41,080 bases of DNA from a virus. The position numbers and the translations under genes were made by a program. The stretch is from positions 1 to 41,080 of the IMG/VR virus record IMGVR_UViG_3300006751_000030. One strand, 5' to 3'. Shown here piece by piece: positions 9,755-33,955 of the stretch. Under the pieces are notes generated by a model. It made no database searches. It was given only the letters and a program-made list of their open reading frames with translations, and was not told the DNA's origin. The first letter of the stretch is position 1. Every line of letters starts with the position of its first letter.

Positions 9755-12700
9755 TTAGTTCTCCAACTTAGTACCAAAGGTTTGTGGGCCGGGCTTCGCA
9801 GATCTGGCGCTTTCATCTCTATCTGGATCACCAAGCTTGCTGCCCGCAGACTTCTTGGCCGTAAAGAATATAGTTAACAATCTATCAACCTTCATTAATG
9901 CTCCTGGGGCAAAAACCTCTTCGCCTTCTGATGTTTCTCCAACTTCGGGAATACAATCTACTTCAGCCAAATCCTCTGTCACAGACTGAATACCTCTGTC
10001 AGTAACGGCCTGAATTACAACTCCACAAATACTCCCTCTTATTACCACTTTTCCTGGAGTTTCTGAAGATACAGCAAGAGTATATGTATTATCTTCCTTC
10101 ACAACAAGCTCTTCGGTTCCATCTACAACGGGAACCAATTCTGCCCCAGTCTCTGTTTCGTCTTCAACAAAGTCTATCTTAATTTTTTCACGCTCAACTA
10201 GATCTAAAGCGCCTGAAATTTCGCTATCATCAGCCTCTCTTGGAATTATTGTAATATAAGCTTTTTCTTCCGCCTCTAGAATAATCATATCTCCAATTCC
10301 AGAGGCATATTCCATAGCTCCCGTTATTTGCGGCAATCCAGACAAGTCATCGTCTGTAGCTGCTATATCTGCTAGCTGAGCAAGGTCGGCCTGCTCCGGA
10401 TTAACAAACTCCGGTAATGGCGTTTCGTCTTCATCCCCAGAGAGCATAAATGTTGTATTTAATGGATTTATAACAAATTCGCAACAATCATCTATAGCGG
10501 TATTAACACAGTCTACAAGATCATCATACTTCTGCTTTATTGAAACCTTAAATGGACCATCTGGATCTATATCTCTTTCTTGAATTGGACATTTCGGAGG
10601 AATTTTGCCTTGCGCCAAATAAAATCTTGACTTCGGAATGAATCCTTCTGGCTCTTCTGTTATTGGATCTATAATAGCTTCGCTCTTAAAAAAGTTTAAG
10701 AAGTCTGTAAAGCAATCTTCTACAGGTGAAACTACTTCGGCTGCAAAGTCTCTATCTGAGTCAATCAGGTCCATTAGAAGCTCTAGAGGGCCAGAGGCAC
10801 CGCAGGCTGATGCTATATCGTCCGCTACCTGCCTCATATCGATCATGTAAAGCCTTGGGAAGTCAAACACCCGTATGGAGTCTAGGGCGGCATTCAGAGC
10901 CTTCTGATCGCTTTTTGTCCCATAAGCAAAGTCTTTAGCGCCGTAACCGGGGAACGGAATATCATCTATCGTAAGTGGCTCCCCCTCCTCTCCCGTAAAT
11001 GTATACGACATTTCTGATTTCGCCGTTGAAGGCCAAGGGATTATTTCCCCACAGGTGGTATCCTCATTTATCCAAGAAACTGAAAATGGACTTCCGTCAG
11101 TCAGGTGGTTTTTGATCGTACTCCAAGATATAGCATCGCCAGCAGGCTTGTCGCTAGCTAGCCCCTCATCTTTTGAATCAGGATTATAACCCTCAGACAC
11201 TACAGATTCTCCAGTATCACAATCTTCCCCCGAGTCCACCGTGACGGGATCAGCTAACTTCCCGGCCTTGTCTCCAATTGCATTTGCATTTGCTTGCATT
11301 TTTACGAGTATTGATCCGTCTGGTTCGACTGTTGTATAATCAATAGTGTCATCAGCGTTGTACTCCGCACCAGAATGGGTTTCCGCAACAACAGTTTCTC
11401 CCAACTCTCCATCTGGATAGTCGTCAAGATCTCCCTGAGATATGCCCGAAGTTCCAGTAAAGTCATAAAAATCACCCAAATAAAACTCAAATACCTCCCG
11501 CGCTTCTCTTGAGAGCTTTTGTTTTGGAGCAGATGGCTTGTTTATCATCTTTGCAGATATGCTTGCAATCTTCCAAACTCCATCTTCTTTAATGGCCTTA
11601 ATTCCATCATCTTCTATGAAATAAACATTAAAATCATGATCTATAAGAGCAACCATGGGAATGCCGCCAAATGTCTTCTTTACTGTTCTGGGAATGAATT
11701 CAACGTCATAAGATTCATTATCGTTTGACGGCTCCATAAGATCTATATCAACAGTTAAAGGTAGTGGGGTAAAGGTTGTAAAGTCACCATCTACGCCAGA
11801 ATACTCAATAAATGTTCTAACATTATTGCTGACATCTCCTCCGGCCCCGTCAATTGGGCTTACAAAGTCTATTTCTTCTTTATCTATATCTGTAGTTGAA
11901 ATTTTCAAATCGCCAGCGCCAACAGTTAAAAATGACGGCATAGAATCACAAGTTTGAAGCATATCAATATTCTTCTTTCTAAAGAATATAGCGATTAACC
12001 AAAATCCAAATGCAAGCGCATGAGTTTCGCCTCGCCCCTTAAATTCAAAGCTTACAATTCTTGGATCTGGTCCCGTCCAGATCTTGAATTCTTTTTTAGA
12101 CTTTGTAAATGATAATCCAAATGTTGCCTGGAAATTATTTAAGCCATTTATCGTTATAGTTTCTCCATCTTGCTCATACTCTACTTCGTTAGCATGTCTG
12201 TCTGGCCCATTAAATCTCAAGTGGCTATAGTCAACATTGTGTATTTGCTCTAAATCATAATATGTCCCGGCTGAAGAGAAAAATCCACCTGCCTCTGTTT
12301 GCTTATTTTCGCCTGTAGCAGAATCCTTTAATCCAGGCAAGTCTGTTCCGCCAGGAACTTCTGATGCAACTATGCCTTTAGATGTCCCTGCAACTTCATA
12401 CGGATGAATAAAGAAGTTTGAAGCGTCCGTATTGCCCATGTAGTTTCCGGCCATAAATGCCTCATCCTCTTCTATTTTATCCGGATCAGCATTATCTGGA
12501 GGGGTATTGCCTTTTACTCCAATATTTTCTAATGGAATAGTTGTATAAGTCTGAGCAAGCGGGATTAATGCATCAGGCTCAATTCTGCCATTTGGAGCAA
12601 CCTTACTCAAGATAAGTCCAGCCAACATTGACGAATCAATACAAGCCTCTTCGTCGTCATCTGCCCCGACCTGACATGGGAAGGCGAATAATAGCTGTAA

Positions 12701-15700
12701 TAACTCTAAGAATAGAGCCAAGATTGTCAAAATAGGCTCAAGAACTTCAAGGTCAGCCTCAAGGCTAAATAGGTGTTCGTTTATTGCCTCTTCTAGAGCC
12801 ATAATTGAGGGATAATTTTTATTCTCAATCGCCAACTCTAATGCAGTCGCAATTTCATTTATTGCATTGATGATGCTCAAAATCTTAATTATGACACAAA
12901 GCAAAAGCTCCAGAATGTGAAGCAATAATGCCAACATCATGCAAGGAACTGATAGCTGCGGAAGTAGACATATCAAGTCATATAGGCATAAGAATAATCT
13001 AATGATTGCAAAGGCTAATCTAATCGGATGAAGCAGAGCGCATATAACATCAATAATACAGAAGATAATCTTAATTGGAATTAAGAGGACTTTAAGGTTT
13101 CTTAGCTGCAAAGATAGCTCTGCCGTTAGGTGGAACGAGAAATCGCAGAAGCTCTGCATAAGCTCTTTTGCAATATTTGCCTTATCTAATTTAACTGCTG
13201 TAAACTTTAAGAAGAACTTTTCTATCTTTGCCTTCAGGTCTCCTGCGGGGCCGGTCTTGCTCCTATTTCCACCGAACATCTGCTTTATCCAGTCTGGATC
13301 CAAATCAACGGGCAAGTTTCCGCCGACAGTTCTGCCTAGCCTCAATCTATTTTCGTTGGTATTTGAAATGCTTATCTTTATGCAAGGATTTGTTCCAAAT
13401 ATAGAAAAACTACTTAAATCAGGAATCTTTATATCGAAATCCAAATATATACCTGTAGATGTTGGGCTGTATTTGCCCTTAACTCTCTTGCCTCCCACTT
13501 CAAATTTTGTATCTAAAGTGGTCCCAATAGTTCTTATTGTTAGAGTGTCACCCTGGGTGATTTCCAAAGAAGCATATTTATTGTCACCATCTTGAGTGTA
13601 TCTGGCGTCACCTTTGGTGACATCAATTATTTCAGGAACATTAAATTTTATAGCAGCAGTTTGATAATATGTAGTTTTCAAGAACATTTTCCATTCTAAT
13701 GTCCCATCAGTCGGATGATCCCTAACTGCCCCAGAGCTTACAACTGCACCATCTGGAATGTATGTGTGTAAAATGTTTGCTTTAGCAAAATCACTAGGCC
13801 TAGACGCAAATGCACTAGCCGCATCTTCAATTGCCTCGCCTATTGATTGAACAATGCTTGACAACTTATCCGTTAAGGCTAGGATTGAATTCGCTAAATC
13901 AGCCAGCGCACCGACCGCATCTTCTACCGCATCTCCTGCATCATTTAAGGCCCCCAAGGCTGCATCAGCTGCTGCGGCAGCATCTGCCAAGCCAGACCCT
14001 ATGGCTCCGTCACCGCTTGCAACTTCATCTGACCTTGCTTGTTCCATAGCTTCTGCTGCCGCTTCGTCTGCTGTTACAGCATCTTGTGATTCAGCAGCAA
14101 CACTATTAAATTCACTTTCTTGTTCCGAAAAGCCATCAATGCTGTCCTGCAATTCCTGCGCAGCCTCTCCAAGCTCTTCCCCTGCCTCTGCTGCAGCGGC
14201 AGCCGCATCATCAATCGTAGATTGCACATTAGAAGCTACAGAGGTTACCTCGGCAACCAAGCTTTCACCTGCCGCAACAAGCTCGTCTAAACTAAATTCA
14301 ATTTCAACATTTCCACTAGTGCTGATTGTTAGAATGTCTTCTTTTAATTTTCCGTCGTCATCTATTTGAAAATCAGATACTACAACGCCTCTTGTTTTTT
14401 CACTCGTGCTGGTTTGTACTTTCGCTCCAAGCTTTAAAGTTACGCTCGGAATCACCTTAATTGGAGAACCAAAAGTATAATAGGCATTAGACCCACCATC
14501 GTCTACAGCGGCTTCTCCTGGCAAATTTGGGTGACTACTCTGCGAAAGAAGCGGGAATGGCGAAAGATGCGAATTTCCTCCTGGAAAAATAACACTAGGA
14601 GCATATAAAGTATCGTCTGATCCTTCTTCGCCTTTGGTAATTTTAGCAATCTGCTTATCTCCGCCAATGTCTAAAACCTTGGTTCCTTCAGATGTCGTCA
14701 AGGGATGTGTGCCTGTTGTTTCACCTTTCGCGTTTTGTGTTAAATCTGTTTCATCAAACTTAATGGTTGTAATATTATAAACGGTGGAATCATAAGTAAC
14801 ATTAAACCTCTTATCTTTCTTCAATACAGTTACATCTGTCCATCCTTCGTCCGTTATTCCTGTTATGTTTCTGAAATTTGCAACAACATTGTTATCCCCA
14901 GCATATTTTATTCTGCCGGCTCTATATTTTTTGAGCTTTTTGGTCCCAATGTAAACTTTATATCTTGCAGACAGTCTTGGCTCATCTGGCCCAGTAAACA
15001 CAACTGCCAATCTGGTCAATGCATCTGCGGCAACTATTTTAACAAGCTTATCGCCATCGGATTTCCCTTCAACTAAATGTCGTTTTATTCTAGGTCTTAA
15101 AGCGTCCTTTACGCCATCTGTAATGCCTGCGGTATCAATTGAAGAAGCAATTCTATTCTCTCCCCTGGCGGCTGGCAGTTCAGCTATTGAGCCCAATACC
15201 TGCGGAGGGCTTATAAATGCCGGCCCGGTCCCGCTCCTGGCAGCGCCTCCTAATGGAATTATAACATAATTTTTTGAGCCCTCTGTTACTCCGCCTTTAA
15301 TCTCGCCTGTTAAAGATGCATTTGCTATTAATAAAAAGGCAGGACTAGTACTTTTTCCAGACTCTGCCTCTAGCTCTGTAAATCTGCTTAAGTTATAACC
15401 TGCACCGGCGGTTCCAGGAAATTTTAATATTGCTTTTCTTTTATTTTTTGAATAAAAATCAGACCCATTAAACTCATACTCTAATATTGTAGGAACTAAA
15501 AGTGTTTGGTTTAATCCAGAGCTTACTCCTACAGAAACCTCTTTGCATTCGTCAGCAGAATCTGTAAAGCAGAAGTCATCCAGAATATCTTTGTTCGCCG
15601 CAGTATTTGCTACGGCTATATAAGCATATAGCTTGCCGCCATCTTCGAAAATCTTTTCTTTAGACTTCATTTTGATCTCAGCACTTTGTCCGTCCATAAG

Positions 15701-18046
15701 AAGCGGAATTGAATGCAGGCCATCTTTAAACTTCGGAACCTTAAGATGAAAAGGATCTTTAGGCTTAACTGGCGTAGAAACCTCTTTGGGCAAATCTGGC
15801 CCCAAGGTGCCAGGAGATGCAACATAAAGAGCCTTAGGGGCGCCTACAAACCCTGTTGCAGATTGTAAGGCAAGATAAAAAGTTCCTACATTGCTTCCAA
15901 CAAAATCGTCCCAGGTTCCAAATGTTTGTATAGTTAAGGCCGTGTCAGATTGACTTGTAAAATAAACAGAGTTTCCATTTATTTCATCTCCATCTTGAAA
16001 CGAAGTAATTAAATCTTGACCGTTTAGATCTGAATAAACATTAACACTGGACACCTCTCCCATGGCTGTTCCTGACAGCCTTAGAGTAACTGTCTCACCA
16101 GCTTCAAAAACTGTATTTGCCGCCCTAAAGCCATTTGGAGTAATGCCGGTCACTTGAGCCACTGGCGGATATATAGTTACATTTTCCCCAGGCACTCTAA
16201 CTATCTGCCCAACAACATCTACAACATAAAGGGCATATTCCGTTGTGGCGGATCCATTAAATATCTCTAATGCTCCCACCGTTTTTAATTCTAAGGCTAT
16301 ATTTGACTCAGACAAATCTGAATCAGACGGGGTCGCTGCTTTTAGCTCAATCCATAAAGACGGTATTTGCGCATCTTCATCTGTCAAAATGTTTGGCATA
16401 ACAGAAGATACAATATTTTTCGATCCAGCAGTTTTAGGCTCAAAAAACTTTTCGTTATTTTTTTCATCTGCGGCTAGACCATCTCTGTATCCAATAAGAA
16501 TTTCCGGTCTATTTATCTCTCCAAGAATATCTTCGGTTTTGTCTACCCCTATATCTGAAAGGCTGGTTTGAAGGGGCACTCCTAAGTCAACAATATTTAA
16601 CGCTGATCCTGCCGTCAATGTAGTGGCAGAAGAGCTCATGCCGTCCAAAACGGAGGTATTGAACAGCCCCTGATTTGAAGAATCTATTTTTTGATCTTGC
16701 ATATAATCAACAAAGTCTTCATATATTGTCGAAAGAGTACTCGCTGGAACTGGCGTTGGTGACTCCTTAGTATCACTAGATGGTTCAAAATATGTCTTTG
16801 TTAAAACAGGTGCCGTAAATACCTCTATCCCCTCATCAGATTCTCTAAAGCCACTTGCTTTAACCTTGCCCTTTGGAGTAAATATTGGCGATAAATAATA
16901 TCGATATGTTCCTGTTTCCAGCCCATCTTTTGATATAATAATTTGCTCTTCGGGGGTGGTCCTGCCCTTGGGGGGGTAATTTAAATCATTCTCTATCATT
17001 TCCGGACATGGCGGGGCCTTATATTCAAAAGCTTTAGCCGAGTATAAATGATCTTTTAAAAATTCAAAAGTTAAAGTAAGAACTTCTTCGTCTGCATCAT
17101 CTTCTTGAGATAAATTATACATATTTTGAGAAAATCCAGAGCTATCTCTTCCTGACATATCTGGCATCTTTACATATATAGAATCTCCATATGCTGTAAA
17201 AAATCCAATATCTTCGGCCAACTCTCTCCCAACAATTGCATCATCGTCAAGTCTTCGTATTGGAAAAAGCTCCAATATAGCTTTAGTTATATATTCATCG
17301 GCGTTTTCTTCGAGGTCTGCAAGGCTTTTCTTGCCGCCCAAATTGCCGTATAAAGTTCCAAAGGTTTCTCCAGAATACCCGACATAATTTTCTAATCCAT
17401 ACTCAGTTTCATCTTCTGCGCACACGCTGCCAAGAATCTTTTTGATAGTATCAATGGGAATAAACTTAAAATTTCCAATTATCTTAAGTCCATAGAACCT
17501 TGGGTTAATGCCCTCCTGATCTTCGGCATCTATTTTTTTCTGCAAAGTAGCGGCATCTTTTACGCTTCCATCTCCAGACATATAGCTAGACAATATAAAT
17601 GATGGAACTCCAAATGCATGCCATTCCGCAGAAAGAGATGGCATTGCTAGCAGAGCTTTGTTTATCCTTACTCTTGCGTCATTAAGATCAGATAAGCTAG
17701 GTGTTTTTGGTGTATTTGACTCTATATATCTTTTGAGTCTATTCGTCTGCCTATCATATTTGCCGGTAAGATCTTTTGCATTTTTAACTTGCTCATGTAT
17801 TGATTTCTCTCCAGTCGCGTCTGCATTTTTAAATGTAATCTTAACTATTGAGCCGCCGATAAGCGGAACCACCTTTAGTGTTCCAGCACCAGCGGGAAAC
17901 AGTGTTTCTATTTTTTCTACTTCACAATCCGGGCGGCCAGCAGTCGCCTTGCTCTCCGGAAAGCAATTTACTTGTATTGTTGCAAATTCTTCATTTGTCT
18001 TTATAGCGCCAACAACTAATGGAAGAATCTGTGAGTCATAACCCAT
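9755..18046 (-). CDS. Giant 2763-residue virion protein with long hydrophobic Cys-rich segment
   Basis: I do not recognise this as a named family. The start has AGAGG eight bases upstream. Visible sections: a mixed N-terminus (1-400); an IPT/TIG or Ig-like beta-sandwich at about 627-742 (VTGITPNGFRAANTVFEAGE); a second Ig-like region around 1000-1120; an Ala/Glu/Asp-rich helical or coiled-coil stretch at about 1253-1415; an extremely hydrophobic helical segment at 1652-1732 with Cys at 1663, 1669, 1687, 1693, 1702 and 1717, plus a further hydrophobic helix at 1770-1790; then acidic beta-rich sequence to the end, with another Cys-rich patch (DDCCEF). It lies between the spike and the gp25-like wedge gene, so it is most likely a baseplate component. 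The hydrophobic part could be a buried core or a membrane-inserting element released on contraction. Confidence 0.6.
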   Translation of the reverse strand: MGYDSQILPLVVGAIKTNEEFATIQVNCFPESKATAGRPDCEVEKIETLFPAGAGTLKVVPLIGGSIVKITFKNADATGEKSIHEQVKNAKDLTGKYDRQTNRLKRYIESNTPKTPSLSDLNDARVRINKALLAMPSLSAEWHAFGVPSFILSSYMSGDGSVKDAATLQKKIDAEDQEGINPRFYGLKIIGNFKFIPIDTIKKILGSVCAEDETEYGLENYVGYSGETFGTLYGNLGGKKSLADLEENADEYITKAILELFPIRRLDDDAIVGRELAEDIGFFTAYGDSIYVKMPDMSGRDSSGFSQNMYNLSQEDDADEEVLTLTFEFLKDHLYSAKAFEYKAPPCPEMIENDLNYPPKGRTTPEEQIIISKDGLETGTYRYYLSPIFTPKGKVKASGFRESDEGIEVFTAPVLTKTYFEPSSDTKESPTPVPASTLSTIYEDFVDYMQDQKIDSSNQGLFNTSVLDGMSSSATTLTAGSALNIVDLGVPLQTSLSDIGVDKTEDILGEINRPEILIGYRDGLAADEKNNEKFFEPKTAGSKNIVSSVMPNILTDEDAQIPSLWIELKAATPSDSDLSESNIALELKTVGALEIFNGSATTEYALYVVDVVGQIVRVPGENVTIYPPVAQVTGITPNGFRAANTVFEAGETVTLRLSGTAMGEVSSVNVYSDLNGQDLITSFQDGDEINGNSVYFTSQSDTALTIQTFGTWDDFVGSNVGTFYLALQSATGFVGAPKALYVASPGTLGPDLPKEVSTPVKPKDPFHLKVPKFKDGLHSIPLLMDGQSAEIKMKSKEKIFEDGGKLYAYIAVANTAANKDILDDFCFTDSADECKEVSVGVSSGLNQTLLVPTILEYEFNGSDFYSKNKRKAILKFPGTAGAGYNLSRFTELEAESGKSTSPAFLLIANASLTGEIKGGVTEGSKNYVIIPLGGAARSGTGPAFISPPQVLGSIAELPAARGENRIASSIDTAGITDGVKDALRPRIKRHLVEGKSDGDKLVKIVAADALTRLAVVFTGPDEPRLSARYKVYIGTKKLKKYRAGRIKYAGDNNVVANFRNITGITDEGWTDVTVLKKDKRFNVTYDSTVYNITTIKFDETDLTQNAKGETTGTHPLTTSEGTKVLDIGGDKQIAKITKGEEGSDDTLYAPSVIFPGGNSHLSPFPLLSQSSHPNLPGEAAVDDGGSNAYYTFGSPIKVIPSVTLKLGAKVQTSTSEKTRGVVVSDFQIDDDGKLKEDILTISTSGNVEIEFSLDELVAAGESLVAEVTSVASNVQSTIDDAAAAAAEAGEELGEAAQELQDSIDGFSEQESEFNSVAAESQDAVTADEAAAEAMEQARSDEVASGDGAIGSGLADAAAAADAALGALNDAGDAVEDAVGALADLANSILALTDKLSSIVQSIGEAIEDAASAFASRPSDFAKANILHTYIPDGAVVSSGAVRDHPTDGTLEWKMFLKTTYYQTAAIKFNVPEIIDVTKGDARYTQDGDNKYASLEITQGDTLTIRTIGTTLDTKFEVGGKRVKGKYSPTSTGIYLDFDIKIPDLSSFSIFGTNPCIKISISNTNENRLRLGRTVGGNLPVDLDPDWIKQMFGGNRSKTGPAGDLKAKIEKFFLKFTAVKLDKANIAKELMQSFCDFSFHLTAELSLQLRNLKVLLIPIKIIFCIIDVICALLHPIRLAFAIIRLFLCLYDLICLLPQLSVPCMMLALLLHILELLLCVIIKILSIINAINEIATALELAIENKNYPSIMALEEAINEHLFSLEADLEVLEPILTILALFLELLQLLFAFPCQVGADDDEEACIDSSMLAGLILSKVAPNGRIEPDALIPLAQTYTTIPLENIGVKGNTPPDNADPDKIEEDEAFMAGNYMGNTDASNFFIHPYEVAGTSKGIVASEVPGGTDLPGLKDSATGENKQTEAGGFFSSAGTYYDLEQIHNVDYSHLRFNGPDRHANEVEYEQDGETITINGLNNFQATFGLSFTKSKKEFKIWTGPDPRIVSFEFKGRGETHALAFGFWLIAIFFRKKNIDMLQTCDSMPSFLTVGAGDLKISTTDIDKEEIDFVSPIDGAGGDVSNNVRTFIEYSGVDGDFTTFTPLPLTVDIDLMEPSNDNESYDVEFIPRTVKKTFGGIPMVALIDHDFNVYFIEDDGIKAIKEDGVWKIASISAKMINKPSAPKQKLSREAREVFEFYLGDFYDFTGTSGISQGDLDDYPDGELGETVVAETHSGAEYNADDTIDYTTVEPDGSILVKMQANANAIGDKAGKLADPVTVDSGEDCDTGESVVSEGYNPDSKDEGLASDKPAGDAISWSTIKNHLTDGSPFSVSWINEDTTCGEIIPWPSTAKSEMSYTFTGEEGEPLTIDDIPFPGYGAKDFAYGTKSDQKALNAALDSIRVFDFPRLYMIDMRQVADDIASACGASGPLELLMDLIDSDRDFAAEVVSPVEDCFTDFLNFFKSEAIIDPITEEPEGFIPKSRFYLAQGKIPPKCPIQERDIDPDGPFKVSIKQKYDDLVDCVNTAIDDCCEFVINPLNTTFMLSGDEDETPLPEFVNPEQADLAQLADIAATDDDLSGLPQITGAMEYASGIGDMIILEAEEKAYITIIPREADDSEISGALDLVEREKIKIDFVEDETETGAELVPVVDGTEELVVKEDNTYTLAVSSETPGKVVIRGSICGVVIQAVTDRGIQSVTEDLAEVDCIPEVGETSEGEEVFAPGALMKVDRLLTIFFTAKKSAGSKLGDPDRDESARSAKPGPQTFGTKLEN

Positions 18047-26908: not shown

Positions 26909-26933
26909 CTAAAATAAATTTATTATCAGTCTT
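26909..26933 (-). repeat. AT-rich hairpin at the tape measure stop codon
   Basis: On the minus strand GACTGA pairs with TTAGTC, with one bulged T and an inner AATA/TATT stem around AATT. It includes the last codon and the TGA of the tape measure gene. No run of T follows, so it is not a standard terminator; it may slow ribosomes, protect a 3' end, or have no function. Confidence 0.35.
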
Positions 26934-28893
26934 GATTAGTTACTGCCAAATTAGATCGAATCTCTGTAAGCATATGCTCCGCCTCTCCTGCAAAGCCAAT
27001 CGTGACTGTTTGTCCAGCAACAGCTTCAGCTATTGCATCTGCTATAACTCTAGCAAATTCTTCTCGACTTGCAAATCCACCCTCTTGCAAAGTGGCCTTA
27101 GAGGCAGACGCGGCCGCCTCCATTGCAGCCCTAGTTATTTCATCTCCAAGCTCTTCTGAACTCATTCTTCTGGCTCTAGAAAGATTTTGGTTAACAGCTG
27201 TTGCTGCCTGCCTAGTCCCCTCTAAGTCTCTGGTCCCTCTTGCTGCAGTTGTTTGCAGATACCGCTCTCCCTCTCCAGAGCCAATTCTAGACCCTCCAGA
27301 GCCCCCTCTTGCTCCGGAAATTGTTTGCTGCATTCTTGCCCTTTCGGACTCGTCCATATTTTCTACTATTCCGCCCTCTATATCATCAAGCATCGCGCTA
27401 AATTTTGCCCCGGTAGCATTTATAGCGCCCTCTGTCTGACCAACAACGTGCTCGCCCATTCTTCTGGGAGTTTCTATCAATATTCTATTTTGTGCAATTA
27501 ATAATTGAACCTGTGCATAAGCATGTTGCTGCACTTTTTCTAAGTTAGATACTGTAGCATCTTTATTTTCAGTAGCTCTAGTTAACTGCTCTGCAACCTC
27601 TGCGGCTCTATCTGTATTCCCAGACGCTTGAGCCTCTTCTAATTGTGAAAGAAGGTCTAAAACTTGATTTTGAGTTCCCGTATCACTAATTCCATATTGA
27701 CCTTTTAACATTTGTTGCTGAGTAAAGAATTGAGCTTGTAATGATTGATCTTGATTAGCTTGCTCTACAGTAATTATATCTCCTCCGCCAAATTGCTCTA
27801 ATACATCTCGCATTCCACCGGCCATCTGCATGGCAAGCTCTCCTTGATCAATTCCAGAATCTGGCCTCATCGCTGCCTGTAAGGCAATTCCCGAGCCAAG
27901 AACGCCGCCTCCAGTTGCCCCAGGAATCTCTAAAGCCCCAGATTGCATCGTCAAAAAGGCCTGCGCGTAATTTCCCGACAAGCCGATCAATGCTCGACTC
28001 AATGATTGCGTTACCTCTGCAGCCACCTCTACGCCAAATCCGGCCTCTTGAACAGTCTTTCCAAAGGCCGCCAATAGCGGTGCTCCAAAGGCTGCAGTGA
28101 CACCAAGCTTTTCAAATCCTGACGCCATTCTATTTAAAGAAGTGGCAACGCTATCTGCAGACATTCCTATTTCTTTGCTTACGCTTGATATTTCAGCAAG
28201 CTGCTCGACCGCCTGAGTTGCACTCATTCCCTGCTTTGCTATCATCTGATTTAACATATTTGCCCCAGCTGATGCGCTAATGTTCATGTCTTCAAGTTGA
28301 GTATAAGCAACAGCAAGAAATGGGGCTGCACCAAGAACGGTATTAACACTTTCTGCTTGTTTATCTAACGTTATGTTTGTTCTGCCCAACTGTCCTGCGA
28401 ATCCCTCCATGGCCGTAGTGTCCATTAGCATAGCGCGCCCAAATCCTGAGGCAGGAATTGTTCTTAGCATATCCCCAAAGCCCTTGGCCTCATCAGCGGT
28501 TCCGCCAAATCTTCTTGCCAGGTCTGTCATTTTTTTATCATATTCCAAATATTCTTTTGGAACATCAAGAACTGTGCCCAATGCCTCTGCGCTGGATGCA
28601 ACAGTATTTGAGATTTCAGATATAGTGCCACTTAAAGCGCCAATTCCTTGCCCAACTAAATCAAAAGCGGGCCCGATGCCGTCAATGTGACCCAACAGGC
28701 CTGTGATGGCGCCTGCTGACTTAGCAAACCCTTCTTGAATTCCGTTTAAATGTTGTGCTGCGGTAGACAGAGGTGTGCTCATATCTCTAGTCGTTGACAT
28801 AAAGGAGCCCATTGAAACGTGGGCATCCTTAATTCCGCCAGAAACGTCCCTGAGCGCGTCTCCCATTTGTGTTAATTTATCTAGATAACTCAT
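26926..28893 (-). CDS. Tail tape measure protein
   Basis: A 655-residue, largely helical, Ala/Gly/Gln-rich protein in the tape measure position after the chaperones. Typical features include a helical N-terminus (MSYLDKLTQMGDALRDVSGG), small-residue hydrophobic stretches (AITGLLGHIDGIGPAFDLVGQGIGAL as part of about 60-95; AAFGAPLLAAFGKTV near 265), long Gln/Ala helices, and a Gly/Ser/Arg linker near 525-545. At about 1.5 angstrom per residue the length predicts a tail of very roughly 100 nm. No peptidoglycan hydrolase domain is seen, unlike many tape measures of phages of Gram-positive hosts. The ribosome binding site is weak (GGGA-like), compatible with low copy number. Its TGA is part of an AT-rich hairpin. 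Confidence 0.85.
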   Translation of the reverse strand: MSYLDKLTQMGDALRDVSGGIKDAHVSMGSFMSTTRDMSTPLSTAAQHLNGIQEGFAKSAGAITGLLGHIDGIGPAFDLVGQGIGALSGTISEISNTVASSAEALGTVLDVPKEYLEYDKKMTDLARRFGGTADEAKGFGDMLRTIPASGFGRAMLMDTTAMEGFAGQLGRTNITLDKQAESVNTVLGAAPFLAVAYTQLEDMNISASAGANMLNQMIAKQGMSATQAVEQLAEISSVSKEIGMSADSVATSLNRMASGFEKLGVTAAFGAPLLAAFGKTVQEAGFGVEVAAEVTQSLSRALIGLSGNYAQAFLTMQSGALEIPGATGGGVLGSGIALQAAMRPDSGIDQGELAMQMAGGMRDVLEQFGGGDIITVEQANQDQSLQAQFFTQQQMLKGQYGISDTGTQNQVLDLLSQLEEAQASGNTDRAAEVAEQLTRATENKDATVSNLEKVQQHAYAQVQLLIAQNRILIETPRRMGEHVVGQTEGAINATGAKFSAMLDDIEGGIVENMDESERARMQQTISGARGGSGGSRIGSGEGERYLQTTAARGTRDLEGTRQAATAVNQNLSRARRMSSEELGDEITRAAMEAAASASKATLQEGGFASREEFARVIADAIAEAVAGQTVTIGFAGEAEHMLTEIRSNLAVTNQD

Positions 28894-28908: not shown

Positions 28909-29346
28909 CTAGTCTGTATTGTCCTTAGTTATTTTCAAGATATTAGACAAATTTTTCGGCAATCTAATGTCTCTTGGATCTCTAGATCTACCAATATTAT
29001 TAGTATTTTTATACTTATCCTTAATAGTCTTAACAAAGTCGTCTGCTTTATGCCAATCTTCCTCGGAAAATTTCCCAAACTCTTCATCTGACATAAATCG
29101 TTTATCTTCTTTTGCGTCTCGCATACTGCGTATGTGCTTAACTGCATCGGAATTGATAAATGATGCTAAATATTCTGTAAAGTTCAATTCTTTTTTATAG
29201 GAAGCTTCTTCTTCTCCTGAAATCATCAAGCTATACCAAGCCCACTGAGCTACGGTCATATCAGAAAATACCTGGTCATCAACTTGGCATTGCCAAATTT
29301 TACATAATTCCCAGCGCAGCCAACTTTCGGGCTCCGCGATTATGCT
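28909..29346 (-). CDS. Tail assembly chaperone, -1 frameshift extension (T-like part of GT)
   Basis: This frame is open from a TGA at 29355-29353 to the TAG at 28911-28909. An ATG at 29259 exists, but the codons before it also read as good protein (IIAEPESWLRWELCKIWQCQ), which favours entry by frameshift rather than a separate start. A -1 slip on T TTA AAA joins it to the upstream chaperone, re-reading base 29346 and adding 145 residues for a total of about 306. The section with ESWLRWE and TVAQWAWYSLMISGEEE resembles T-parts of tail chaperones, which are rich in Trp and acidic residues. The C-terminal half is charged and helical (MSDEEFGKFSEEDWHKADDFV). No clear binding site precedes the ATG at 29259. 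The fusion would contact the tape measure during tail assembly. Confidence 0.7.
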   Translation of the reverse strand, partial: SIIAEPESWLRWELCKIWQCQVDDQVFSDMTVAQWAWYSLMISGEEEASYKKELNFTEYLASFINSDAVKHIRSMRDAKEDKRFMSDEEFGKFSEEDWHKADDFVKTIKDKYKNTNNIGRSRDPRDIRLPKNLSNILKITKDNTD

Positions 29347-29352
29347 TTTAAA
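29314..29352 (-). promoter_or_regulatory. Programmed -1 ribosomal frameshift signal
   Basis: In the frame of the short chaperone the RNA reads GAU UUA AAA GCA UAA, which contains U UUA AAA, a heptamer of the form X XXY YYZ (29352-29346). Eight bases later a stem-loop begins: GCGGAGCC (29337-29330) pairs with GGCUGCGC (29321-29314), with one central G-G mismatch and the loop CGAAAGUU. The -1 frame entered is open for 145 codons. This is the arrangement of the lambda G/GT and P2 E/E' signals. Confidence 0.78.
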
Positions 29353-29828
29353 TCATCTACCTCAAAAGTCTTGCTAGATTCTTCTATAAGTTCTTCATAA
29401 GCTTTAAACAAAGACTCTATAAGGCCAACTTGGAGGCTCATTATAACAGAAATTCTTTTATCAAAAGAATCTTCTAGATCTTCGTCTTCACAAATATCTT
29501 CTAAATTAACGTCATTAACGGTTTTTAGCGCAAAAGCTAATGTGACAGGCTTTGCATCTAACAGCCTAGTAACATCATCTACAATCATTATTTTTTGCAT
29601 AACTGTTTTTTGCTCTTTTGTAGTCAATGTTGTTAGAAAGAAATTATATCCACCTATTTCAACTTCTTTTTGTAATCTTCCTAAAAATATTAAATCTTTC
29701 AAATTACTTAAATTTAAACTTTTGGAGCTGTTATCATCAGACTCTTCGCTCACAATAGTTTCCTCAGGATTATTATCCTGCTTTTTTGAAGAGCCTGAGC
29801 GATCTATAGTTGCTGTTCTCTTTGGCAT
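29340..29828 (-). CDS. Tail assembly chaperone, short (G-like) product
   Basis: A 162-residue protein lying between the tube and tape measure genes, the usual place of tail assembly chaperones. I chose the ATG at 29828 because AAGGAG sits five bases upstream; a TTG at 29843 would place the binding site inside the gene. The N-terminal ~40 residues are polar and probably disordered. The body (DLIFLGRLQKEVEIGGYNFF, LTTLTTKEQKTVMQKIM, PVTLAFALKTVNDV) resembles phage tail chaperones with their LTTLT..E pattern. The end of the gene carries a slippery heptamer (T TTA AAA at 29352-29346), one codon before its TAA, which would let some ribosomes continue into the next frame. Tail chaperones bind the tape measure and recruit tube subunits. 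They are normally absent from the finished virion. Confidence 0.75.
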   Translation of the reverse strand: MPKRTATIDRSGSSKKQDNNPEETIVSEESDDNSSKSLNLSNLKDLIFLGRLQKEVEIGGYNFFLTTLTTKEQKTVMQKIMIVDDVTRLLDAKPVTLAFALKTVNDVNLEDICEDEDLEDSFDKRISVIMSLQVGLIESLFKAYEELIEESSKTFEVDDLKA

Positions 29829-29883: not shown

Positions 29884-29914
29884 CAAAAACACCGCCAAAA
29901 AGACGGTGTTTTTT
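29884..29914 (-). terminator. Rho-independent terminator after the tail tube gene
   Basis: On the minus strand the RNA forms a stem of up to 12 pairs (core AACACCGUC with GGCGGUGUU, one G-U pair) closed by a UUUUU loop and followed by UUUUUGUUUU. It lies about 20 bases after the tube stop and before the chaperone gene. On the plus strand the same hairpin has one C-A mismatch, so the minus strand is the better fit, although a run of T also follows on the plus strand. Confidence 0.88.
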
Positions 29915-29933: not shown

Positions 29934-30590
29934 TTAATAAGCTGCGGAAATAAGCCCAGGGAAGTCCAGAGAGCCTCTGCGTCCGTCGAGACCGACATCT
30001 GCTGCCTGCTCAATGTTATCTATCTGTCTATTTGCAACCTCTCGGCCACCACCAGTGCCTTGTCCATTCGCCACTGGAGTATCCTTGCCGCCACGGTAAG
30101 ATGTAACATATTCAGCGTCCATTCCACAATCTTCCGCTACAACATAGTCTGTAGTCGTATAGCTCTTTTTAAGACTTGTGAACCAACAGTTATGATATGT
30201 TGTGACTATTGAGTCTTCAGATCCGCCGCCTGAGAACTTATCAATAACTACTATATCAAAAGGGATTCTCTGTGACTGTATGTTTACAAAGCCTCTTGAC
30301 ATAGACTCTGTTAGAGACAGTCCGTCAAACATGATTCTATTGCAAGTTAGGCCAACCTTCGTTGCTGAGTTTGGTATTATTTCTATAATTCCATCTGTGC
30401 CAACTTCTGTAATTTGCTTTACACCTCTTGATTGATTTGCTGCAAAAGTCTGAATTGCGCCAACCGGCTCATCGTTAACGTAAACAATTACCTGAGTCGA
30501 TAAACTCGTTCTTGTTTTTGCTGCGGTTCCCGTAGGCCCTTCGACTGTTGCACTATCTAAAATGCTTGCTGTATTTGGATAATCTGCCAT
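29934..30590 (-). CDS. Tail tube protein (gp19-like)
   Basis: A 218-residue protein directly downstream of the sheath, with AGGAG before the ATG. The central region (VYVNDEPVGAIQTF, then ITEVGTDGIIEIIPNSA, then RIMFDGLSLTESMSRGF, IPFDIVVIDKF) matches the beta-barrel pattern of myovirus tail tube proteins, which form stacked hexameric rings through which DNA passes. The Gly-rich stretch about residues 165-185 is probably a surface loop or the flexible C-terminal region. The gene is followed about 20 bases later by a strong hairpin terminator, which would keep sheath and tube transcripts, needed in high copy, separate from the low-copy chaperone and tape measure genes. Confidence 0.9.
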   Translation of the reverse strand: MADYPNTASILDSATVEGPTGTAAKTRTSLSTQVIVYVNDEPVGAIQTFAANQSRGVKQITEVGTDGIIEIIPNSATKVGLTCNRIMFDGLSLTESMSRGFVNIQSQRIPFDIVVIDKFSGGGSEDSIVTTYHNCWFTSLKKSYTTTDYVVAEDCGMDAEYVTSYRGGKDTPVANGQGTGGGREVANRQIDNIEQAADVGLDGRRGSLDFPGLISAAY

Positions 30591-30604: not shown

Positions 30605-33600
30605 TTATATGACCCCAACTTCAATATCGATAAAGATATAATTTATTGGGTAAGCTGGTGAAAACTGCAAGAAAACGTTTATTTGTCTCGGATCCACTTT
30701 GTCTTGCTGAACCCTAATATTTTTATATGTTGTGATCAAACCCTGCTGAACTAATCCGGCTAGAATTGATCCAGTTCTATTCCCCACTAATATATTTGTA
30801 TCAGCGCTCTGTACTCCCCCGATAAATCCTTTTAGCGAACTGCGCAATACTTGCTTGACCCTATCCCTAATAAACATTATAGAAATTTCTTCATCTTCTA
30901 CGTATCCTGTATTGCTAGTGGTCCTTCCTGCTAAGACTTTCCCGCCGCCTGTAACCGGCTGAAGCACTGTTGCTCCAACGTTCCCAAGGCTATTGAGAGT
31001 AACAGGCCTTAAGACTTTATCTCTTAGTATGGAGAACCCAGATAATGATTTATGAGTTAATGGAATGGCCACATTTTGCTTGCTAGATAAAAATCCAGCT
31101 GCACAAGGCGCTATATAAAATCCGTCCAATGTAATGTTTGTTCCATTTACATTTCTCACGATGGAGTCCGGCCAGAAGTATACGCATCTAGTGCTGGTAT
31201 AATTTTCATCTAATTGAAAGTTTACCAAATCTTCTACATTTTGGTCCAAAACCTCAGCAGGATCGTCCCCTTGGATTCCTTCTAATATTCCTATGTCTTC
31301 AACTGCCACTTCTTCTTGGCCAATTAGCGCTGCTGCTGTCACACCCTCGATTGCTCCAATGAATGCCAATCTTTCTTTTCTGTTAGCAATGGAGCTCATA
31401 TTTTCACAGTGATTTACAACTGCTCTAAAAATAGATGACTTAGCCTGAAGCGGAAGCGGAACAATAATCTGTGCTTCTGCGGCCTCTAGTGCTTCGAGTG
31501 CATTAAACCAATTTGTATCAAAATAATCTGCATCATTTTCATCTATATATGAAATTTTAATTCCATCGCCTTCTTGTAAAACTCCGCTCTCTACCAAGTC
31601 CTGATGAAGCAATAGTGATGCGTCCACATTTGTTGTGTCCCCAACATCCTTAACAAAGAATTGCACGTCCTTATAGGAACCTGCAGTTAATGCAAATGCT
31701 GCGCCAGTATCATAATATGGTAAGATATAAGCCTTTTTGTCGCTAGCAACAGTTGATATTACAACTTCTGGATTATCAAGATGAGCGGCTGCTTCTCCGA
31801 ATAACTGATCTGCAATTTCTTCTCCAGTAGTATATACTGTGCCATCCGATGGATGCTCCATACTTGTTATAACTATTGTCGTTTCATTTGCGGTAAACTC
31901 CATGCTTCCGTCAAAGTCCACCTCTAACGTTTGTAAGTATGTTCCGGTTTCATCTGTAGCGATATCGCCATCTATGCCATCCCCAAGGATATCAAAGCTT
32001 GTATTTGCTATAGTATAAGAAAAGGCATAATCAGAACTTGATATAAAATTAGTTTGCTGAGTAACAGACTCAAGCTGTGAGTTATAGAAATCAACTTTAT
32101 TTGGAAACACTTGAATGTCTACGCCATCTCTAACTATAAATAAGTTTACTCTGCTATCCGGATCTGGCCTACCCTCTCTGAGCCCTGTTATTGGCCTTGG
32201 AATAATAAAGGTTAGGTCATCTACTTCGCAGTTGGAAGCGCTTTCGCTTGCGCTACTATAACAAGATGCAAATCCACCATTGCCATCTGAATCAACTTCT
32301 TCTACTAAAGTAGTTGTGGTTCTTCTTGGTATGGGCGGCTTACACTGAAGGGCGAGAATTCCAGGTGCTCCATTTTCAAGAGTCATTTGAGCGCCTAATG
32401 ATAAAGTATTTGTTTCTCCAGGGTCTCCATGCTTTTTGAACATATCTGCTGCATCAGTAAAAAACTCAGGATCATCAAGATCGCCTTCGTATATATATTT
32501 TGCATCTAATTGATCACCTCGCGCCAAGGCTCGCCCTGCCACATCAACATAAAATCTATCTCCGACCTCAAAAGTAGTAGTGCCTTCGGCTATTCCCAGT
32601 AGTAATATTCCGTTTGTTTCTAACAAATATACTGTCAAGCTGCCTTCTGCGATACCTTCGGTCAATGTGCTATCTTCGTCCATCTCTGGGAAGGCAGATG
32701 TTGAATCCCCATAAAGGGAAACTCTGGCCCTTCTGGAGGAGGTTACAGCGTCTATAACATATTTTCCTTCTGCATCTCCAGAGCAAATAATAGCTATCTT
32801 GCCTATATCTTCGCTGCTAAACGTCCCAGCGCTAGCAGGGTCTCCCCAGTCGTCCTCGTCACTATCATCTTCGTGAGCAACAGTGGGGTCATCAATCAAT
32901 ACGTTTGTAGCTCTAATCTCCCAGGTTGTCAAAGCGCCAGATACCGTAAGAGTATCGGCTACAACTGTAACTGTTGACTTTGTAGTATCGGTAGAATCCG
33001 TAGTGGATCCCACCTCAATGCTTTTTATCTCATAAGCTGTCTCGCTAAGTATTAAATAATCACCGGCCATTACCTGGCCGTGAGAAACCAAGTCTTCACT
33101 TACAACAAACTTATTTGTACTAGTTGCCGTGGAGTCTCCAGACACCAAAGTTGGCGTACCTGACGCTGAACCTGCACCGCCTCCAGGCCCTATAGAGTCA
33201 TTGGCGACAACTAGGCCGTCTGTTATAGGGTCTATATTTGCACTTACTGCACCAGCAGATAATGTCTCATAAGAACTTGTAAAAACCTTAGCGGCCCCAG
33301 ATGCATCATAAAGCTGTCCAGAGCTAGAGCCAGTTGCCGTAAAAGTGGCCTGCCCTGCAATTGGAGTTCCCGAAGAATCTCTTTTGACAGCTACACACTT
33401 AATGGTCCATCTTTCAGGAGGCGCAGAAGAATCAATTACCTGCAAGGTATTCCCACCCGCACCAGATGTAGTTCCGCAAGTTGCCTCTACAATATAGCCA
33501 TCGCCAACGTTTGATGAAGAAGCAGAATATCCATCTCCGCCCTGATCTTCAATATATGCGCCCTGAAGCTCTATAGCTCCAGTGGTAACGTCAATTCTAT

Positions 33601-33955
33601 AATCAAATTGTGTATCAAAGCCGCCCGAAGTCCACTTGCTATCCGAGGAACCAACTGTGTCTTGCACTCCAAATAGCAAAGTGCCATTTAGTCTTAATTC
33701 TGTTCTTCCGCTTACAACAGGAACGTTCTGTAAATCAAAATATCTTCCATCTCCAGAGCCTGTGGGGCTATAAGTTGAGCTTCCGTCTGTGCCGCTTCCG
33801 GCTGCGGAGTCAATAATAGTCTCTTCTCTGAGACCCTCTCCCATTACACAAACAATTCTAATTCCGCCAGGAATTGAAACTCCTCGCGAAATAACCCTGT
33901 CTCTAGCGAAAGCCCCTGGCTGTATGAAGCCTGAAATTCCGGGTATATTAGCCAT
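30605..33955 (-). CDS. Tail sheath protein (contractile), enlarged
   Basis: A 1116-residue sheath protein with a strong GGAGG binding site before its ATG. The C-terminal ~320 residues carry the conserved sheath core: NALEALEAAEAQIIVPL near residue 818, GFYIAPCAAGFLSS, SILRDKVLRPVTL, ISIMFIRDRVKQVLRSSLKGFIG, and the final strand ending IFIDIEVGVI that links subunits. The N-terminus (PGISGFIQPGAFARDRVISRGVSIPGG) is also sheath-like. Between them lie several hundred residues of Ser/Thr/Gly/Asp-rich beta sequence, so it is far longer than T4 gp18 (about 660). The extra domains probably sit on the outside of the sheath. It is followed after 13 bases by the tube gene. Sheath subunits polymerise round the tube and contract at infection. 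Confidence 0.93.
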   Translation of the reverse strand: MANIPGISGFIQPGAFARDRVISRGVSIPGGIRIVCVMGEGLREETIIDSAAGSGTDGSSTYSPTGSGDGRYFDLQNVPVVSGRTELRLNGTLLFGVQDTVGSSDSKWTSGGFDTQFDYRIDVTTGAIELQGAYIEDQGGDGYSASSSNVGDGYIVEATCGTTSGAGGNTLQVIDSSAPPERWTIKCVAVKRDSSGTPIAGQATFTATGSSSGQLYDASGAAKVFTSSYETLSAGAVSANIDPITDGLVVANDSIGPGGGAGSASGTPTLVSGDSTATSTNKFVVSEDLVSHGQVMAGDYLILSETAYEIKSIEVGSTTDSTDTTKSTVTVVADTLTVSGALTTWEIRATNVLIDDPTVAHEDDSDEDDWGDPASAGTFSSEDIGKIAIICSGDAEGKYVIDAVTSSRRARVSLYGDSTSAFPEMDEDSTLTEGIAEGSLTVYLLETNGILLLGIAEGTTTFEVGDRFYVDVAGRALARGDQLDAKYIYEGDLDDPEFFTDAADMFKKHGDPGETNTLSLGAQMTLENGAPGILALQCKPPIPRRTTTTLVEEVDSDGNGGFASCYSSASESASNCEVDDLTFIIPRPITGLREGRPDPDSRVNLFIVRDGVDIQVFPNKVDFYNSQLESVTQQTNFISSSDYAFSYTIANTSFDILGDGIDGDIATDETGTYLQTLEVDFDGSMEFTANETTIVITSMEHPSDGTVYTTGEEIADQLFGEAAAHLDNPEVVISTVASDKKAYILPYYDTGAAFALTAGSYKDVQFFVKDVGDTTNVDASLLLHQDLVESGVLQEGDGIKISYIDENDADYFDTNWFNALEALEAAEAQIIVPLPLQAKSSIFRAVVNHCENMSSIANRKERLAFIGAIEGVTAAALIGQEEVAVEDIGILEGIQGDDPAEVLDQNVEDLVNFQLDENYTSTRCVYFWPDSIVRNVNGTNITLDGFYIAPCAAGFLSSKQNVAIPLTHKSLSGFSILRDKVLRPVTLNSLGNVGATVLQPVTGGGKVLAGRTTSNTGYVEDEEISIMFIRDRVKQVLRSSLKGFIGGVQSADTNILVGNRTGSILAGLVQQGLITTYKNIRVQQDKVDPRQINVFLQFSPAYPINYIFIDIEVGVI

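Follow-up and report, generated by a model that had tools for sequence, protein, structure and literature searches.

A very probable programmed −1 ribosomal frameshift in the tail assembly chaperone genes of an uncultivated phage and its relatives

Two overlapping reading frames between a tail tube gene and a presumed tape measure gene

The window, by which we mean the whole 41,080-nt viral stretch analyzed here, encodes on its minus strand a 162-aa reading frame (29828..29340) that ends in GAT TTA AAA GCA TAA, and a second frame, displaced by −1, runs on past this stop to 28909. The locus therefore raises the question of whether the second frame is a gene of its own or whether the two are joined by a programmed −1 ribosomal frameshift that makes a tail assembly chaperone pair, here called G and T after the chaperone of phage lambda; a preliminary description of the sequence had proposed the latter. 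We hold the frameshift to be very nearly certain. A frameshifted tail chaperone pair is a well-known viral trick and the finding is of a kind already known; fresher are the turnover of the slippery site through hybrid sites, the terminator that precedes the chaperone gene, and one relative that does without the frameshift. The coordinates of the features are collected in Table 1.

Table 1. Features of the chaperone locus and neighboring genes in the window
Feature	Position	Strand	Description
Tail sheath	30605..33955	−	1116 aa; phrog_2839, E 1.5e-16; matches phage tail sheaths by tblastn
Tail tube-like protein	29934..30590	−	218 aa; homolog of phage G gp180 (BLASTP E 8e-21); phrog_985, E 2.7e-10
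Intrinsic-terminator-like hairpin	29885..29913	−	In the gap between tube gene and chaperone gene; recurs among relatives (see text)
G-like tail assembly chaperone ORF (0 frame)	29340..29828	−	162 aa; ATG after a strong Shine-Dalgarno sequence (AAGGAGAACAG-ATG); C-terminus LKA*; family alignment of 42; fold match; phage G gp181 by profile and fold
−1-frame TGA	29353..29355	−	Abuts the 5' side of the heptamer; slip window of 10 nt
Slippery heptamer T TTA AAA	29346..29352	−	−1 slip; next codon AGC, from 29346; conserved among relatives (see text)
0-frame stop TAA	29340..29342	−	One sense codon (GCA) past the heptamer
Presumed stimulatory hairpin	29314..29337	−	GCGGAGCC 29337-29330 / GGCTGCGC 29321-29314; 8-nt loop; one G-G mismatch
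T-like domain (−1 frame)	28909..29346	−	145 codons and TAG; homology to the C-terminal part of phage G gp182
In-frame ATG, gene-caller start for T	29257..29259	−	Judged not the start: no Shine-Dalgarno sequence, conserved protein 5' of it
Probable tape measure protein	26926..28893	−	655 aa; assigned by position only

The chaperone pair lies between the tube-like phrog_985 gene and the presumed tape measure gene, as is typical of the lambda G/GT type. The order sheath, tube, chaperone, tape measure is that of Bacillus phage G and of Mycobacterium phage Myrna, both of which have annotated joined chaperones, and the sheath of the window is homologous to the sheaths of phage G and of actinobacteriophages. 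The tape measure candidate had no family match in Pfam and PHROGs searches, and its similarity to gp183 of phage G is weak and insignificant. Two further features of this tail region are unusual in size: the sheath is very large, with known sheaths matching only its C-terminal ~190-300 residues, and a single reading frame of 2763 aa (9755-18046, minus strand) stands amid the tail genes.

The coordinates of the slippery heptamer, proposed to lie in frame and one sense codon ahead of the TAA, check out on the minus strand, where TTTAAAA (TTT and then AAAA, GATTTAAAAG) has the X XXY YYZ phasing. The 8-nt spacer between heptamer and stem (GCATAATC) and the stem-loop with one mismatch are likewise confirmed, and the −1 frame is open for the 145 codons claimed. 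A TGA that closes the −1 frame immediately 5' of the heptamer is missing from the preliminary description; both frames are open together over 10 nt only, and this whole span is occupied by the heptamer and one codon. Bare TTTAAAA is frequent in the window (36 occurrences, against 26.5 expected), so that the motif is by itself weak evidence and its meaning rests on its register, its place, and its relatives.

We posit that most ribosomes would read the G frame to the TAA and release the 162-aa chaperone, and that a minority, paused by the hairpin while at TTA AAA (29351-29346), would slip one base back, whereupon both tRNAs would re-pair on TTT AAA and reading would go on in the −1 frame. The resulting GT fusion, join(29828..29346, 29346..28909), would have 161 + 145 = 306 residues, in agreement with the approximately 306-residue product by joined coordinates of the preliminary description. 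In Escherichia coli, nearly all X XXZ ZZN heptamers shift when a stimulator is present, and the motifs listed as most efficient do not include U UUA AAA (PMC4066793); the yield at this site may accordingly be low, which would suit a rare product.

Conservation of the slippery heptamer and of the T domain ahead of the annotated start

The T part was used to scan viral contigs, which brought in 4 loci at first, 12 next, and 64 in the last round; with the most distant relative as query, 20 loci were returned, six of them on contigs new to the set. After removal of copies and of the divergent locus L083, the analyzed set comprises 43 distinct loci, window counted, of which the 42 others show 31-53% identity in the T part. 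Scanned contigs of bacterial and archaeal genomes yielded no relative, and hence no clue to a prophage or a host.

The preliminary description had suggested that heptamer, frame, and stem be compared among homologous loci. In 43/43 loci the G stop is preceded, at a distance of 0 or 3 nt, by an X XXY YYZ heptamer in register. AAAAAAA alone accounts for 20 of these sites, TTTAAAA alone for 13, AAAAAAC for 7, and TTTAAAG for 1, while two sites hold both TTTAAAA and AAAAAAA. Within the bodies of the G reading frames of the same loci, in-register XXXYYYZ takes up 0.7% of the codon positions, and a set of six heptamers of the A or T3A3 type, which includes those found at the site, takes up 0.2%. The more distant loci L098-L103, one of which is on a contig of 358,993 bases, have AAAAAAA in the same place, as does Eggerthella phage LE2-3; Bacillus phage G has AAAAAAC there. 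The frameshift layout is thus kept among homologs, with L083 as the one exception.

A single gene broken by an indel, whether through sequencing error or as a pseudogene, would also present two adjacent frames that resemble one protein. However, the same layout recurs with different heptamers in more than 40 contigs, two further contigs have a T part identical to that of the window, and a cultured phage has the same layout; judged from these sequence comparisons, the reading is already refuted by the relatives.

The frame could alternatively be changed by transcriptional realignment, in which RNA polymerase rather than the ribosome slips on a homopolymer run. Relatives with TAAAAAAATAA do contain a run of 7 A, and AAAAAAA is strongly avoided in E. 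coli genes, which has been ascribed to slippage of this kind or to mutation by indels (PMC4066793), so that polymerase slippage is possible in the A7 relatives. Yet the TTTAAAA class, which makes up about one-third of the loci and involves at least three changes on the tree, has no long run, and the conserved downstream hairpin described below fits ribosomal frameshifting. The window itself offers TTT and then AAAA only, and runs as short as these are too short for efficient polymerase slippage. We therefore consider this explanation ill-suited to the window and very improbable.

The remaining alternative is that T is an independent gene, translated from the ATG at 29259 or from an alternative start upstream, with the slippery motif being incidental. 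A reading frame of 116 aa does exist from this ATG, and L083 has a separate T gene preceded by a Shine-Dalgarno-like AGG and an ATG. Against this, no Shine-Dalgarno sequence was found ahead of the ATG in the window, and the best-conserved N-terminal stretch of T, EPxSxLRWELCKIW, directly follows the shift site and lies 5' of the ATG. The claim that the part before the ATG (ESWLRWELCKIWQC) reads as real protein is borne out, since few parts of the T domain are conserved better. An in-frame start codon ahead of the LRWELCKIW motif is absent in nearly all loci, and a start codon with a ribosome binding site ahead of the conserved T domain was found in L083 only. These observations make an independent start very unlikely in this group; together with the heptamer present in every analyzed locus and the codon-level selection on the hairpin directly past the stop, they leave the separate-gene explanation scarcely credible for the window. 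The annotation is corrected accordingly, to a 306-aa fusion in place of a separate gene at 29259.

Selection on the downstream hairpin

The stem of the window, as first described, stands and can be refined: its conserved core is GGAGCC - 8 nt - GGCUCC, located at a fixed distance past the stop in most loci; the core stem starts 10 nt past the heptamer in the window and 7 nt past the A-rich heptamers. Since the hairpin is coding in the −1 frame only, selection on it can be tested through codon choice. Codons in the stem differ strongly from those elsewhere in the T genes: GAG encodes 32/34 Glu residues (28.5% elsewhere), CTC encodes 25/36 Leu residues (4.7%), and at the Arg positions AGG is used in 23/25 (20.5%) and CGN in 35/38 (22%). 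The family mean hairpin energy is −14.3 kcal/mol, compared with −5.7 +/- 0.37 kcal/mol for synonymous-codon randomizations, with 0/500 randomized sets as low, and 37/43 loci fall within the lowest 5% of their own randomizations. As the sequences share ancestry, these counts do not represent independent events. Taken alone, the hairpin of the window is moderately better than its randomizations (−12.7 vs. −6.8 +/- 2.4 kcal/mol; 14/500 as low, 2.8%). In register, 86% of cells form the stem pairs, compared with 29-52% when the register is slid, and some loci (L064, L069, L073, and L080) have lost the usual stem and have a differently registered hairpin instead. Because the core stem is nearly invariant, covariation by pair count is modest (6 cells changed on both sides against 2.0 in shuffled data, with further pair types not in excess), and the test by synonymous codons was used in its place. 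A downstream structure is thus present and selected for, a feature of the lambda G/GT type that is not universal there, and we presume that the hairpin stimulates the shift.

Slippery-site turnover, the terminator, and a relative without the frameshift

On a tree of G and T together, each of the two types of site, TTTAAA and AAAAAA, forms clusters, and at least three to four changes are needed to explain their distribution. Two loci have hybrid sites (TTTAAAAAAA; L024 2990-3001 and L059 2990-3001) that contain both T TTA AAA and A AAA AAA. L024 is the sister of the large TTTAAAA clade, and such hybrids possibly represent intermediates on a path between the two types of site. The window's TTTAAAA groups with two A7 loci (96/86 support), apart from the large TTTAAAA clade, suggesting that it arose by a separate change. 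The relatives thus show a slippery site that changes, from A6N to T3A4 with some loci holding both, while its position and the hairpin stay constant.

A hairpin of the intrinsic-terminator type is found between the tube gene and G in 33 of the 42 loci with enough sequence, window counted, compared with 0.26 expected from shuffles, and it is kept in place though not in sequence. Such an element would lower expression of the chaperone and the tape measure protein relative to that of the tube protein.

L083 (IMGVR_UViG_3300025316_000336, 2826-2893), a single diverged contig, stands alone among the relatives found in having no frameshift. Here G and T appear to be separate genes: no heptamer accompanies the G stop, T has its own AGG followed by an ATG at 2891, and the gap between them contains a 12-bp terminator-like hairpin with a T8 tail (−20.4 kcal/mol by folding), whose long loop kept it from being picked up by the simple terminator scan. 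Upstream of G, the search for a terminator in this contig gave none. A relative without the slippery site and with its own T start had been named in the preliminary description as the case that would tell against the frameshift; it is encountered here alone, and the arrangement in the window is not refuted by it. We tentatively speculate, while regarding the idea as somewhat doubtful, that the amounts of G and T in this chaperone family may be set by two stacked devices, an intrinsic terminator before the gene and a frameshift within it, that are exchangeable in evolution, and that L083, which is without both, may ration T through transcriptional read-through of its G-T hairpin instead. L083 provides a natural case without the frameshift in which to ask whether the G:T ratio can be set otherwise.

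Comparison with known tail assembly chaperones

The link to phage G came via the tube and sheath hits and by profile comparison. A tblastn search of cultured phages with the T part returned nothing at E up to 1, and neither G nor T matched a Pfam family. In PHROGs, the window G protein has weak chaperone matches (E 0.037-0.14) that other members do not share, and the PHROGs matches of the T part (e.g., a transcriptional regulator, E 0.0066), which differ from member to member, were taken as chance. Both halves are homologous to the tail assembly chaperone of phage G (NC_023719), which is annotated as a joined CDS, gp181/gp182, before the tape measure gene: the family profile matches gp181 with an hhalign probability of 98.5% (E 3.4e-15) and the C-terminal part of gp182 with 97.2% (E 3.2e-11). 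The G part was modeled with AlphaFold2 (mean pLDDT 77, more than 90 in the core), and the model matches HK97 gp13 (PDB 2ob9; Z 7.3) and Bacillus subtilis YqbN (PDB 3klu; Z 7.2), with the next match at 4.2 and all Z values below 8. Foldseek comparison of this model with BFVD returned gp181, gp182, and the tail assembly chaperone of phage Finch, and the top Foldseek match of the T-part model is gp182. By prediction, then, the G part has the tail-chaperone fold of HK97 gp13 and YqbN, although its sequence identity to these proteins is low, at 18% and 8%, respectively.

Phage G is the closest parallel. Its pair follows the tube-like gp180 and precedes the tape measure protein gp183, and its annotated −1 fusion has A AAA AAC directly ahead of the stop; it differs from the window in its heptamer, in a shorter G (115 aa) and a longer T (about 252 aa), and in its sequence, with about 30% identity. 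A frameshift annotated in one cultured phage is thus extended to a large uncultivated group that includes contigs of about 180-360 kb. Myrna (gp126/gp127) and LE2-3 (LE23_86/LE23_87) have a related sheath and a chaperone pair at the same place. Myrna gp126 is not convincing as a homolog of G and is at best a very remote one (16.7%). The G of LE2-3 matches the family profile with 96.8%, and A AAA AAA stands ahead of its stop with an open −1 frame. No such fusion is annotated in LE2-3 (L008, 7752-8117), where the annotated chaperone probably continues, by a −1 frameshift at this heptamer, into the "hypothetical protein" that follows.

Frameshifting in tail assembly chaperone genes is reportedly widespread, as described by Xu, Hendrix and Duda in 2004. 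The slippery site of lambda is G GGA AAG, unlike that of the window. The preliminary claim of a G/GT-like chaperone stands with regard to the match to gp181/gp182 and the predicted fold of G. No homology between the T part and lambda T was seen (no family match in Pfam or PHROGs), and the window phage has a contractile tail. The likeness to lambda G/GT lies in a small chaperone and a rare, C-terminally extended −1 product encoded between the tube and tape measure genes (PMC5009743). The binding partners in lambda are the tape measure protein for G and the tube protein for the T domain, with a product ratio of 30:1 that is crucial (PMC5009743). By analogy, the G protein of the window would coat the tape measure protein and its T domain would recruit the tube protein, the G:GT ratio would matter, and neither product would be expected to remain in the virion.
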